Assembly (NCBI RefSeq): GCF_012027325.1
Contig: NZ_SNUG01000006.1
Location: 1 to 64,000, forward strand
Direction: 5' to 3'
Source: Thermococcus sp. M39
GTDB lineage: Archaea > Methanobacteriota_B > Thermococci > Thermococcales > Thermococcaceae
DNA: 64,000 bases
Shown here: positions 9,050 to 14,275 of the stretch, one piece after another
How the letters are laid out: each line of letters starts with the position of its first letter
Position numbering within the stretch: the stretch's first letter is position 1
Translations under genes and position numbers: made by a program
Notes under the pieces: model-generated
Databases searched by the model: none
What the model saw: only the letters and a program-made list of their open reading frames with translations
Told to the model about the DNA's origin: nothing

Positions 9050-9856
9050 TTACAACACCTTTGAACGCTTTTTTATGCTTAATATCTTTCTTGCAAGAGC
9101 TTCAACATCTCTATACACTGGAGAGTCCTTTGAAATCGCATCAACGCCTTTTCCTTCGTTATCTACAGAAATAACATTCTCATCAAAGCCTATAAGATGG
9201 TAAGGTGTTGAATCTGAGAAAACTTTTGCATAAAGCTGGGAAGCTCTTAGAGAGTTGTGGACTTTGTTTATTACAAGCAATATATGGGATATGTTGAGCT
9301 GCCTTCCCATTTCTATGAGCTTCCTTGCTATCATCAAGGACTTCAGCGTTGGCTCTGCGACACATATCATGACATCGAATTTCTCTGCCAGTCCACGTCC
9401 AAATACTTCCGCTCCAGCCTCGCTGTCAACAATTACAATATCCTTTTCAGAGAGCAGAACATGCATCAAAAAAGCCCTTGCGAGAGCTAATGCTGGGCAT
9501 AGGCAGCCTTCTTTGCTCTGTTCTATGCTTCCAACGACGACAAGCTTCAAATTTGGCTTTATTGTTATGCCATATTGCTCAGCTAAATCATCAACTTTTG
9601 GAGTTAGTGAGAACAGAACTCCCCAGCCTTCACCCGGCCTTGCTCCAGTCCTTTCCTCTGCAAGCTTCTCATTTCGTGAAAGCGGAATGATTTCCAAAGC
9701 TTCCTCGAATGGAATTCCCAGACTTTGAGCAAGGTTGGGAACTGAATCTGTGTCTAAAGCAAGTACGTTATACCCTTTATCAGCTAAGATATGGGCTAAT
9801 AAAGCTGAAATTGTAGTTTTTCCAACCCCTCCCTTTCCAGCAACAAGTATCTTCAT
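9050..9856 (-). CDS. cooC: CODH nickel-insertion ATPase CooC
   Basis: The 268-residue protein starts MKILVAGKGGVGKTTISAL, a deviant Walker A motif of the MinD/SIMIBI class. The segment EGCLCPALALARAFL near residue 115 has the C-x-C pair that binds metal at the CooC dimer interface, and IVIVDSEAGAEVFGRG is the switch II region. CooC proteins hydrolyse ATP to insert nickel into the C-cluster of CooS. The gene lies between cooS and cooT, with a GGAGGCAC site before the ATG. Confidence 0.93.
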   Translation of the reverse strand: MKILVAGKGGVGKTTISALLAHILADKGYNVLALDTDSVPNLAQSLGIPFEEALEIIPLSRNEKLAEERTGARPGEGWGVLFSLTPKVDDLAEQYGITIKPNLKLVVVGSIEQSKEGCLCPALALARAFLMHVLLSEKDIVIVDSEAGAEVFGRGLAEKFDVMICVAEPTLKSLMIARKLIEMGRQLNISHILLVINKVHNSLRASQLYAKVFSDSTPYHLIGFDENVISVDNEGKGVDAISKDSPVYRDVEALARKILSIKKRSKVL

Positions 9857-9929: not shown

Positions 9930-11831
9930 TCAAACAGGCCACTTGAGCTTCTTTCTTTTCTCAATTATTACATTGTATATTGTTTCTGCTGCCTTTATTG
10001 GATCCGGTTCGACGTAGAATTTTCCTCCAAGGAGGTCTTCGATATCATCCGTGAGGAGTTTTGTAACCTTCTGGCTTCCAAGCACAGGTGGGACAACGCC
10101 TAAGTGAGTGAAGACACCGCTTGCAACGAAGTAAGTTCCTATCGAGACTGCCTTCTCGCTCATCCACTCTGGAGCAGAGCCAGCTACTGGCAAGTCTGGG
10201 ATATCAACGCCCAAAGCCTCAGCGAGCGCTCCAAGGACAATTAGGATTCTTGAACAGTCAACACAGCTTCCCATATGCAAACATGGTGGGATTCCAAGTG
10301 CTTCACATATCGCTTTTAGTCCTGGACCAGCCAGTTCGGCAGCCTTTGGTGACATTAAGCCTTCCATCGCTGCTGCGATTCCCCAGCAACCAGTTCCAAC
10401 TACTAAGATGTCCCTCTTTATGAGCTCCTTAGTTAATGTTACATGACTGTGATTGTGCTTAACCTTTGGATTATTACATCCAACAACTCCAACAATTCCT
10501 TTGATTGTACCCTCTCTGAGTGCATTGATTAGAGGTTCGAGAGTTCCTCCAAGTGCTTCAAGAATTGCTTCAACGCTGAAGCCTGCAACGACTTCACTCT
10601 TGTGTTTTGGAATGTAAACCCTCTCTTTTGGCCTGTTCTGGAAGTTTTCAATTGCAATCCTAACTATCTCCTTAGCAATCTCATCTGCTTTCTCTGGTTT
10701 AAACTCTATGTGCACTGCTCCAGGTATGTGAGCTTTGGGCTCGGTTGTGATTATCTTTGTGTGATAACAGCCAGCCACGTCAACCAATGAGGGCATTAAA
10801 CACTGATAATCAACGACCATGGCTTCAACGGCACCTGTTATTATCGCTAACTCCTGCATCAGGAAGTTTCCAGCTGGAGGAATACCAAGCCTCATTAAAA
10901 CTTCGTTCCCAGTACAGCACATTCCTGCAACATTTACTCCCTTGGCTCCATATTGTTTGGCCAATTTCTGCATCTCTTCACTTTGAGCAACCTCGGCGAT
11001 CTTCATTGAGAGTATTGGGTTATGACCGTGGACAATTATATTCACGTAATCTTCCTTGAGAACACCCAAGTTTGCAACGGTTTTAATTGGCTTTGGCGTT
11101 CCGAAGAGGATGTCGCTTAAATAGGTAGCCATCATTGAGCCGCTCCATCCATCAGCGAGAGAAGTCCTCACACCGTGAAGAAGGAGTGAAGCTGGGTCTG
11201 CATCGACACCCATATGAGTCCTGTGCATGCACTCACAAATTTCTCTGTCAATTGCTCTTGGCAGAACTCCAAGCCTCTCCCAGACTTTAATTCTTTTCTT
11301 AGGTGCTGTTGCCATGAGCAACTTCAATGGCTCATCGTCGGGCTTTCCAAACTCCCATTCCAAGATGTGTGCAACTTCTAAGGCTATTTCACTCTCGGTT
11401 TTCCCCTCTATCTCTATTCCTAAAGCTTGAGCTAATCCCCTAAGCTTCTCAACATCCGTCAGCTTGTATCCCTTGAACTCCCCTGTTGCTGCTCCTTTAA
11501 ACACGTGGACGATGTCTCTTGCATGGTCGCTGTGTGCTGCAGCACCAGCTGCAATCATTCTCAAAATGTTCCTTGCAACTATTGTGTCAGCATCTGCTCC
11601 ACAAATACCTCTAGTTGGTCCAGTGCCGAATGGGTCAATCCTACATGGACCCATGTTACAGTTTCTACAACAAATCCCTAGCAGTCCAAATCCACATTGA
11701 GGTTGCTGCTCTAAAAAGCGGTGCCAAGCAGTCTTTACACCCTCCTCTTCAGCCTTCTCAATTAGGTCAGCAACTCCCTTAGTTTCAGAAACCTGCTTTG
11801 CAGGAACCTTAAACTTTATGTATTCCGCCAT
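9930..11831 (-). CDS. cooS: Ni-dependent carbon monoxide dehydrogenase catalytic subunit CooS
   Basis: The product is about 633 residues, the normal length for anaerobic monofunctional CODH. The N-terminal Cys cluster CGFGLLGICCRNCNMGPCR (about 46-64) holds the B and D clusters. Later Cys and His residues for the Ni-Fe C-cluster occur in VAGMCCTGNEVLMR, VGVVGCNNPKVKHNHSH, GTGCWGIAAAMEG and HMGSCVDCSRI. It oxidises CO with water to CO2, giving electrons to CooF. The ATG at 11831 follows GAGGTGG; the three upstream codons are inside that site. It starts just after cooF and is followed by cooC. Confidence 0.96.
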   Translation of the reverse strand: MAEYIKFKVPAKQVSETKGVADLIEKAEEEGVKTAWHRFLEQQPQCGFGLLGICCRNCNMGPCRIDPFGTGPTRGICGADADTIVARNILRMIAAGAAAHSDHARDIVHVFKGAATGEFKGYKLTDVEKLRGLAQALGIEIEGKTESEIALEVAHILEWEFGKPDDEPLKLLMATAPKKRIKVWERLGVLPRAIDREICECMHRTHMGVDADPASLLLHGVRTSLADGWSGSMMATYLSDILFGTPKPIKTVANLGVLKEDYVNIIVHGHNPILSMKIAEVAQSEEMQKLAKQYGAKGVNVAGMCCTGNEVLMRLGIPPAGNFLMQELAIITGAVEAMVVDYQCLMPSLVDVAGCYHTKIITTEPKAHIPGAVHIEFKPEKADEIAKEIVRIAIENFQNRPKERVYIPKHKSEVVAGFSVEAILEALGGTLEPLINALREGTIKGIVGVVGCNNPKVKHNHSHVTLTKELIKRDILVVGTGCWGIAAAMEGLMSPKAAELAGPGLKAICEALGIPPCLHMGSCVDCSRILIVLGALAEALGVDIPDLPVAGSAPEWMSEKAVSIGTYFVASGVFTHLGVVPPVLGSQKVTKLLTDDIEDLLGGKFYVEPDPIKAAETIYNVIIEKRKKLKWPV

Positions 11832-11841
11832 CACAACCACC

Positions 11842-12477
11842 TCAATACCACTTAACCTCTAAGTAGGCTGTATAAACATCCATTGGGCTGATTTTCTCTT
11901 CCTTTTTCTTTTCTTCAACAACTTGCTCCATGTATACAATTCCTGGGACTTTCAAGCCCGAAATTAATTCTTCTGCCCTTTCTTTTCTAATCTCATCCAG
12001 AATTTCCTCGAGAGTTCCAAACTTCAATGCCTTAGTAGGACAGGCCTCTACACATGCCGGCTCTCTGCCTTCCCTAACTCTCTCAATGCATGAATCGCAC
12101 TTCAGAACAACCTTGTATTCTGGCTCATACTTCGGATGTCCAAATGGACAAGCTATAACACACATCAAACAGCCAATACACTTGTTGGCGTTGAGTATTA
12201 CAAAACCCTCCTCGCTCTTCTTTATTGCCCCAGTTGGGCAGACTTTTATACATGGAGCATCTTCACAGTGCTGACACCTCAGTGGAACATTGAAGAAATC
12301 CGCAACTACAACTTTTAGCCTCGGCTTGGGTGTTGGTTTTTCAGAGATTGCTCCGAACAGTGTTTTGCTCATTGAATGCTCTACTGCACAGGCTATTTCA
12401 CAAGACCTGCACCCCATGCACTTCTTAGGGTCAATGTAGATGGTAGGTCTCTCTAAACTCGCTTTGAGAAGTGACAT
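11842..12477 (-). CDS. cooF: CooF-type ferredoxin with four 4Fe-4S clusters
   Basis: About 211 residues carry four Cys-rich motifs: CMGCRSCEIAC (about 20-30), CQHCEDAPCIKVCPTGAI (about 71-88), CIGCLMCVIACPFG (about 101-114) and CDSCIERVREGREPACVEAC (about 126-145). This is the DmsB/HycB/CooF layout. CooF moves electrons from CooS to the membrane hydrogenase. The ATG at 12477 follows GAGGTGATAAC. It is the first gene of the coo set after the corR intergenic gap and sits two codons from cooS. Confidence 0.93.
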   Translation of the reverse strand: MSLLKASLERPTIYIDPKKCMGCRSCEIACAVEHSMSKTLFGAISEKPTPKPRLKVVVADFFNVPLRCQHCEDAPCIKVCPTGAIKKSEEGFVILNANKCIGCLMCVIACPFGHPKYEPEYKVVLKCDSCIERVREGREPACVEACPTKALKFGTLEEILDEIRKERAEELISGLKVPGIVYMEQVVEEKKKEEKISPMDVYTAYLEVKWY

Positions 12478-12480
12478 TGT

Positions 12481-12580
12481 TATCACCTCAAAATTAAGGT
12501 AAACAAAGAAAATTAAAAGGAGACCGTGTTCGGCAAATAAATCAAAAACTCCTTAATTTATTCACGCACAAAAACACGAC
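12481..12580 (-). promoter_or_regulatory. Intergenic region with candidate cooF promoter and CGTGTT/AACACG inverted repeat
   Basis: The gap between corR and cooF should carry the cooFSCT promoter. On the minus strand AT-rich TATA-like stretches occur near 12510-12520 and 12550-12560, neither clearly better. CGTGTT at 12525-12530 and its complement AACACG at 12573-12578 form a wide inverted repeat that could hold regulator half-sites. The assignment is weak. Confidence 0.35.
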
Positions 12581-13693
12581 TTAGTATTCATATAGTGATA
12601 CTATTGCTCTTTCCCTAATTTCTTTGTACTCCTTCAGAAGTTCCTTAGCAAAATCTGTCAAAATTGTTATTCCCTTCTTCCTCCCTCCTCTAACAGATAT
12701 AACCAAAGAGATACCCAACTTTTCTTCTAAACTCTTTATTTTTTCCCAGTACGTTGATGGAGAAACTCCAAGAGCTTTACATGCAGCTCTAAAGGAATTA
12801 ACCTGAGAGATTAACTCCAAAAGTTCCAAAATTTCTCCAGGAATTTCAACACCATCTTTTGTCACAAATGAGACCTGTATTTTAGGTGAAAGTCCAATAA
12901 TATTTCGATTTATTGCGCAAGATGAAAAGAGCATTTTTCTAAGATCTTCTCTGGTTATTTTCCTATAGTTTACCTCAAATCTTGAAAGTGGACATTTTGA
13001 GAAGTTCCCATAGGGATTTAAGTACAAAGCCCTACAATTCTCAGCACTCGGAGAAGTAAGCAACGTCACTGGATAATTGTCTATGAAGACCTTAATGGCA
13101 TTATAGAAATATTTCCTTCCATAATGGAGACCAATTTCGACGTTTTCTTTCTTCGCGACTTTTTCAAGGAATTTATCCGCATATGGAGATGTGTAAAGCT
13201 TTGGCCCTAAAGTTATCTTTAGCCCATAACTTTTGCACAGTTCAATTGTTGAAAGGATTTCAGCGAAGTCAGAGTTGGAATCCAGCAAAATATACGCCTC
13301 AAGATTGTCTATACCCTGAGAGAGGAGTATTTTCACTGTCTGAAGATTTGATTTTAAGTCCTTATAAGAGGGTATGATCAAGGAGATAAAATCAACGTTT
13401 TCAAGGGAGGTTTTGTGGAGGAAATTTCTTGAAACAGATACTGGAAGGAAAAGAGTGATCTTTCTACAGAGTTCCCTAGTTTGCCTAATTATGATGTCAA
13501 TCTTTGGATGAAGAAGAGGATTTGGGCATGTCAAAAGCCCTTCATCAAATTTAAAATCCTCAAGATGAGAGCTGAGTGTCTCCAATGCCTCAAGAGGGAG
13601 CATTATTCCAGCGCAGCCAAATTTCTCTTTCCAAGGACATATCAAACAACTACTGTCACATTTGCTTGAAGGTTGAACTGCTAAAATGCTCAT
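12581..13693 (-). CDS. corR: CO-responsive regulator CorR: radical-SAM-like N-terminus with LysR/ModE-type C-terminal HTH
   Basis: The protein is about 370 residues. Near the N-terminus is KCDSSCLICPW, a C-x3-C-x2-C motif in the place and form of a radical SAM cluster, followed by a TIM-barrel-like region of about 220 residues. At about 285-330 is a LysR/ModE-type winged helix (ELISQVNSFRAACKALGVSP, then KIKSLEEKLGISLV). In T. onnurineus the CorQ/CorR pair beside the CODH cluster, with CorR bearing a LysR-type DNA-binding domain, is required for CO-dependent growth. Position and architecture match that pair. The start could be the Met at 13693, or one two codons upstream. Whether the Cys motif binds a cluster is inference. 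Confidence 0.85.
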   Translation of the reverse strand: MSILAVQPSSKCDSSCLICPWKEKFGCAGIMLPLEALETLSSHLEDFKFDEGLLTCPNPLLHPKIDIIIRQTRELCRKITLFLPVSVSRNFLHKTSLENVDFISLIIPSYKDLKSNLQTVKILLSQGIDNLEAYILLDSNSDFAEILSTIELCKSYGLKITLGPKLYTSPYADKFLEKVAKKENVEIGLHYGRKYFYNAIKVFIDNYPVTLLTSPSAENCRALYLNPYGNFSKCPLSRFEVNYRKITREDLRKMLFSSCAINRNIIGLSPKIQVSFVTKDGVEIPGEILELLELISQVNSFRAACKALGVSPSTYWEKIKSLEEKLGISLVISVRGGRKKGITILTDFAKELLKEYKEIRERAIVSLYEY

Positions 13694-13756
13694 ATCCATC
13701 ACTCGAATATCACTTCAAATCCGCAGAAAGAGTTGCCAAGCCCCCAGCAGTAAATC

Positions 13757-14251
13757 TCACGTGTTATATTTTTTCCGATAAGCTCTTCCAATGACCCCTT
13801 GAATCAACCCGGCTTCAAAGTCGCATAGGGTTCTGCCAATAGGAGGTGCCTGATAACAGCTGATGCACTCGTATATGTTCACCTTCATCTTGCTGAACGA
13901 CTCATCTACAATATCAAGAAGCCCTATCTTCTGATTTAGAAACACTTTTGGCAGATCATCAATGTCCTTAATTTCACCAGTTTCTATCAATCTGCGAGCT
14001 AGATTATATCCTGCACCTCTCAGAATTAGAGTCCTCAAAGATGGGCTATATTCAAGCATGCCATACGAAACCATCCTAAAAGTCCTCACGTACTCTCTAT
14101 CCTCTGGAGAGATTTTCATGAAAAACGGACGCACAACATTGAAGTAATTCTCGGGAGTTAGCTTAACCTCCTCTCTGTGCTTCTTTTTGCTCTTAACCTC
14201 CGCCTTATATATTTCTCTCCACTTTTCTATTAGAATGCTGATATCCTCCAT
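13757..14251 (-). CDS. corQ: CorQ, V4R-domain partner of CorR
   Basis: The product is about 164 residues and ends with a V4R-like (4-vinyl reductase) domain including NIYECISCYQAPPIGRTLCD, with three Cys that could bind metal or ligand. In T. onnurineus CorQ has a V4R domain and works with CorR to activate CODH genes. The gene precedes corR by about 60 bases on the same strand. Three in-frame Met codons occur at the start (14260, 14257, 14251). A TATA element about 25-30 bases upstream suggests a nearly leaderless transcript. The ligand sensed is not visible from sequence. Confidence 0.82.
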   Translation of the reverse strand: MEDISILIEKWREIYKAEVKSKKKHREEVKLTPENYFNVVRPFFMKISPEDREYVRTFRMVSYGMLEYSPSLRTLILRGAGYNLARRLIETGEIKDIDDLPKVFLNQKIGLLDIVDESFSKMKVNIYECISCYQAPPIGRTLCDFEAGLIQGVIGRAYRKKYNT

Positions 14252-14275
14252 GCCCATCATCTAATGAAATTATTT

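Follow-up and report, generated by a model that had tools for sequence, protein, structure and literature searches.

Is CorR, the DNA-binding member of the CorQR pair, built on a former radical SAM protein, and could its cysteines carry the signal that switches on the neighbouring carbon monoxide dehydrogenase (CODH) genes? CorQR is reportedly the CO-responsive regulator of Thermococcus onnurineus NA1, a description attributed to Kim et al. 2015 (AEM 81:1708). The same two genes occupy the same place beside cooF-cooS-cooC in T. onnurineus NA1 and in the window, that is, the whole 64,000-nucleotide stretch of Thermococcus sp. M39 analyzed here. CorQR activates the CODH cluster, with a LysR-type helix-turn-helix (HTH) in CorR and a V4R domain in CorQ (PMC4791640). 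By analogy with T. onnurineus, the only organism covered by this literature, CO-dependent CODH expression would need CorQR in vivo. The published accounts that we found, the founding 2015 paper standing outside the comparison, give the HTH and V4R domains only, or say nothing about domains, and have neither a radical-SAM-derived domain nor Cys sites. The regulator itself is already known; the radical-SAM origin of the CorR domain is apparently unreported, as our literature search, whose scope did not include the founding paper, retrieved no report joining CorQR with radical SAM, and priority is uncertain. Nor did it retrieve a settled account of how CorQR senses CO.

In the open reading frame (ORF) analysis of the window, CorR is read as 373 amino acids starting with GTG (Table 1), and 15 further full-length orthologs align with it end to end. 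The boundary at 13693 used in the earlier note corresponds to Met4 of this reading, so that its motif numbers are 3 lower than ours. The LysR-type HTH named there was recovered at residues 290-365, where Pfam HTH_1 matches above its cut-off (7e-9), while NCBIfam ModE_repress matches at 2.7e-11, under the curated cut-off of that model. Searches of CorR against PDB sequences with phmmer and hmmsearch gave HTH matches only. CorR shares its winged helix with ModE/LysR-type regulators; its HTH is C-terminal, and it has neither a molybdate nor a LysR effector domain.

Table 1. Features of the corQR-CODH locus in window coordinates
Feature	Position	Strand	Details	Basis
corR	12581..13702	minus	373 aa; start GTG/ATG at 13702/13699, or ATG 13693	ORF
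Radical-SAM/SPASM-derived domain of CorR	12887..13702	minus	residues 1-272	hhalign, Foldseek, Pfam PF04055 in orthologs
CX3CX2C motif	13637..13660 (+ strand numbering)	minus	C15, C19, C22	kept in 23/23 homologs
CPNP at GGEP position	13517..13528	minus	residues 59-62	hhalign alignment and 23 homologs
Twitch-like C223-x8-G232-x4-C237-P	12989..13036	minus		aligned with SPASM CxnGx4C
C262	12917..12919	minus	third Cys of second site	23/23 homologs
ModE/LysR-type winged helix of CorR	12608..12835	minus	residues 290-365	Pfam and NCBIfam profiles
corQ	13699..14260	minus	V4R-domain partner; frame broken near 13790	
CGTGTT	12573..12578	minus	possible inverted second half-site; weak	
CCGAACACG	12525..12533	minus	candidate CorR operator	just upstream of cooF promoter
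cooF	11842..12486	minus	ferredoxin-like electron carrier	named from sequence and published CODH cluster
cooS	9930..11840	minus	Ni-CODH	ORF and CooS comparison
cooC	9050..9856	minus	CODH maturation ATPase	recognized by sequence and position

The Cys motif described near the N terminus is present as CDSSCLIC at residues 15-22 (C-x3-C-x2-C; 12-19 in the former numbering). Since CX3CX2C occurs four times in the 24,450 amino acids of long frames of the window, its presence alone is weak evidence and conservation decides. C15, C19, and C22 are identical in 16/16 aligned Thermococcus-type CorR, the window protein included (the 15 others show 53-95% identity to it), and the motif is kept in 9/9 sequences spanning two archaeal families and in 23/23 full-length homologs from these two families. 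The conservation that had been proposed as a test of the motif is thus found throughout. Only seven cysteines are invariant over the 23 homologs (C15, C19, C22, C59, C223, C237, and C262); C30, C79, C156, and C308 vary. Four of the seven belong neither to the N-terminal motif nor to the earlier note, and three of these define a predicted second, SPASM/Twitch-like site, in which G232 and P238 are also invariant. Its C-x8-G-x4-C spacing, completed by C262, falls one residue below the minimum of the SPASM consensus CX9-15GX4C, and the site is weak when searched alone. An extra Cys near 219, four residues before C223, was seen in six of the seven second-family CorR (loci L112-L117 and L156 were examined) and is absent in the Thermococcus type.

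We used hhalign to compare a profile of CorR residues 1-272 with 18 aligned SPASM-type radical SAM proteins. With Thermococcus-type CorR only, the probability was 95.9% (score 66 over 241 columns; highest score among 100 column-shuffled controls 25.7), and adding the second family raised it to 98.4% (score 107 over 238 columns; highest score among 99 shuffled controls 22.3). Masking every Cys in both profiles still left a probability of 97.1% and a score of 82, against 20 for the controls. The alignment pairs CX3CX2C, which follows strand 1 as in radical SAM/SPASM-Twitch proteins such as MoaA, with its counterpart, the CPNPLLHP region after strand 2 with GGEPLLHP, and C223...G232...C237 with the C-terminal SPASM CxnGx4C. 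When 31 radical-SAM proteins and their reversed sequences, also 31, were compared singly, no reversal ranked among the top 22. One ortholog (L113) exceeds the Pfam Radical_SAM (PF04055) cut-off (32.2 vs 29.5 bits, E 1.5e-7) and carries an HTH_1 match on the same chain, and five of the 16 members of sequence set A1 match PF04055 below the curated cut-off (best 6e-4). The window CorR itself reaches no Radical_SAM model cut-off; in Pfam and NCBIfam it yields HTH matches and, at E 0.017, NCBIfam moaA_archaeal, and it is not among the matches of a PF04055 search of its own genome at 0.001. In a direct search, residues 9-119 of CorR match a SPASM protein with a single-genome E of 1e-4 to 4e-4.

The AlphaFold models of CorR have a mean pLDDT of 53 at full length and 52 for residues 1-272, lowest around the Cys sites. 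With the model of residues 1-272 (pLDDT 52), Foldseek placed MoaA at ranks 1-2 (E 7.8e-5 and 1.3e-3; next 0.019), and the predicted order of strands and helices is that of the radical-SAM core in proteins such as MoaA. The full-length model (pLDDT 53) served the search less well, the matches listed being HTH proteins only. The fold prediction once suggested as a check does not speak against a radical-SAM barrel, of the partial (beta-alpha)6 kind: MoaA ranks first, from a model of low confidence. The MoaA match agrees with radical-SAM homology and has low weight alone. From the sequence comparisons, the N-terminal region of CorR is homologous to radical-SAM proteins over ~240 residues, and we consider its descent from them nearly certain. 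The fusion of a radical-SAM-derived domain to a LysR/ModE winged helix, as first supposed, stands on the 98.4% hhalign match and on the ortholog above the Radical_SAM cut-off.

The genes of the window follow one another as corQ-corR-cooF-cooS-cooC on the minus strand, and the second family has the same order with a V4R gene in first place. A V4R gene directly ahead of an HTH_1 regulator beside CODH genes is thus present here, with the corQ frame of the window broken in this assembly: the open frame stops at 13757, and the V4R end, read in a different frame, runs on to 13699, where it overlaps the corR ATG. Near 13790 the window has one base more than the orthologs, so that the in-frame V4R domain is cut short. 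In a single-contig genome (L008, G109), the corQ frame also appears disrupted, near its start and thus at a different place. It is possible that CorQ senses CO through its V4R domain, that the Cys sites of CorR are structural (Fe-S or Zn), and that CorR binds DNA only on the CorQ signal. In favor of this, corQ and corR overlap in Thermococcus-type loci, and corQ immediately precedes corR in the second family; three Cys of CorQ are conserved across the two families, a profile search shows a resemblance of CorQ to the V4R region of MsvR, and a paper reviewing CO regulators assigns CO sensing to the V4R domain (PMC6557876). Against this, a divergent homolog (L155) keeps the seven Cys without an adjacent V4R gene, and of the 16 residues among CorR 1-288 that never vary over the 23 homologs, seven are Cys, seemingly beyond the needs of a plain scaffold.

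A second alternative, with CorR as an active radical SAM enzyme modifying itself, CorQ, or another target while also binding DNA, draws on the invariant CX3CX2C and the homology to SPASM enzymes, and is unlikely in view of what has been replaced. Radical SAM enzymes have the GGE motif for SAM and a ribose motif, and CorR is without both. At the GGEP position, the homologs read CPNP or, in the second family, CPDP, with C59 and P60 invariant among 23 and residue 61 N or D in all but one. The Asp of CPDP could partly replace the Glu of GGE, but Gly-Gly has invariably become Cys-Pro, the strand-4 ribose motif shows no conserved acidic residue among CorR homologs, and L155 keeps all seven Cys and the Cys-Pro while NPxxHP is gone. 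An invariant Cys-Pro in place of the SAM-binding GGE makes a working radical SAM enzyme unlikely, and judged by these residues, the use of SAM by CorR is unlikely as well. The extra invariant C59, the fused winged helix, and the gene context of a regulator further set CorR apart from radical SAM enzymes. The simplest reading of the alignment is that C59 would supply the fourth cluster ligand and that SAM is no longer used. Judged from sequence, CorR probably binds Fe-S and probably does no SAM catalysis; we lean toward a radical-SAM-derived regulatory domain with one or more Fe-S sites rather than a SAM enzyme. That CX3CX2C is a chance or zinc-binding Cys arrangement in an unrelated sensor domain is highly improbable: although the window CorR lacks a radical-SAM Pfam match and its fold model is of low confidence, the hhalign match survives Cys masking as well as the shuffled and reversed controls, an ortholog passes the Radical_SAM cut-off, and MoaA is the top fold match.

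A bolder reading, to which we give a probability of roughly 40%, is that a former radical SAM barrel now serves a transcription factor as an Fe-S sensor of CO or redox state, free of SAM and ligated by Cys throughout. CorR would then represent a new haem-free CO-responsive class, and a wider rSAM-HTH family would control further low-potential gas enzymes, hydrogenases among them (L155). In the explanation that we prefer, CorR would activate transcription of the CODH operon with a repurposed radical-SAM/SPASM-type barrel as its sensory part, both Cys sites holding [4Fe-4S] clusters. The first cluster would be ligated by C15, C19, C22, and, replacing SAM, C59, hence without SAM radical chemistry. 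CO, or low-potential electrons from CODH/CooF, would alter the state of one cluster, a sensory role that we assign tentatively, and this change, together with CorQ, would shift the binding of CorR to CCGAACACG ahead of the cooF promoter; the altered binding would then recruit transcription.

CooA, RcoM, and CoxC also switch on CO oxidation genes. The first two sense through haem and CoxC relies on an MHYT domain; a radical-SAM-type domain like that of CorR is absent from all three. FNR, IscR, and SoxR are Fe-S transcription factors. They would work like CorR if its clusters are the sensor, although their folds are unrelated. The CODH switch of some heat-loving archaea may be a gas or redox sensor of a new kind that works without haem. 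If so, the scaffold of an ancient SAM enzyme can be converted to switching by gas or redox state, and a haem-free CO switch for hyperthermophiles would be useful in making H2 from CO. Work on CO sensing by CorQR has so far looked to the V4R domain; with the invariant Cys of CorR, there are now exact residues to test.

The nine-base CCGAACACG is identical and in the same place in 16/16 aligned Thermococcus-type corR-cooF gaps, while its flanks differ. It precedes the cooF start by ~50 bp, with an AT-rich TATA-like stretch just after it, a position that suits an archaeal activator. There are three exact copies in the genome, two inside ORFs, and the copy upstream of cooF alone is intergenic. It was not seen in the corR-cooF gaps of the second family. 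On this pattern of conservation, we regard it as a plausible candidate operator of CorR. A possible second arm, CGTGTT, lies ~40 bp upstream of CCGAACACG in the window and in about two thirds of the loci.

We found CorR in 16 of the 115 genomes of the phylum searched, all from the family of the window; the matches inspected in class-level genomes were HTH-only and ModE-like. A profile search of 396 wider relatives detected full-length homologs with ~26% identity in another archaeal family (f20), probably Korarchaeia, and two more came from a search around one second-family genome. The CorQR pair has been reported in Korarchaeum cryptofilum. A contig labelled Thermotogota (L035) carries a Thermococcus-like corR and the cooF promoter motif and is most likely a mis-binned Thermococcus-type MAG contig.

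CorR tracks one CooS subtype. A CooS at least 69% identical to that of the window is present in 22 genomes of the 396 set, and CorR occurs in 21 of these, interrupted in two cases by a contig end or a stop; in the 22nd (G170), cooS sits at one contig end, and another contig end carries a CorR fragment. Members of the window's family with only the 57-62% CooS type are without CorR, except G085, which has CorR on a short contig and in which only this other CooS type was found. This absence fits the reported difference of the T. gammatolerans CODH locus (PMC2718504).

The divergent CorR-like rSAM-HTH protein L155 (5213-6247, G404) adjoins NiFe-hydrogenase (group-4-like)/complex-I-like genes rather than CODH genes, and suggests a wider family of rSAM-HTH regulators. 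No V4R gene was seen among its neighbors, which also include an AOR-like gene and a SPASM-like protein.
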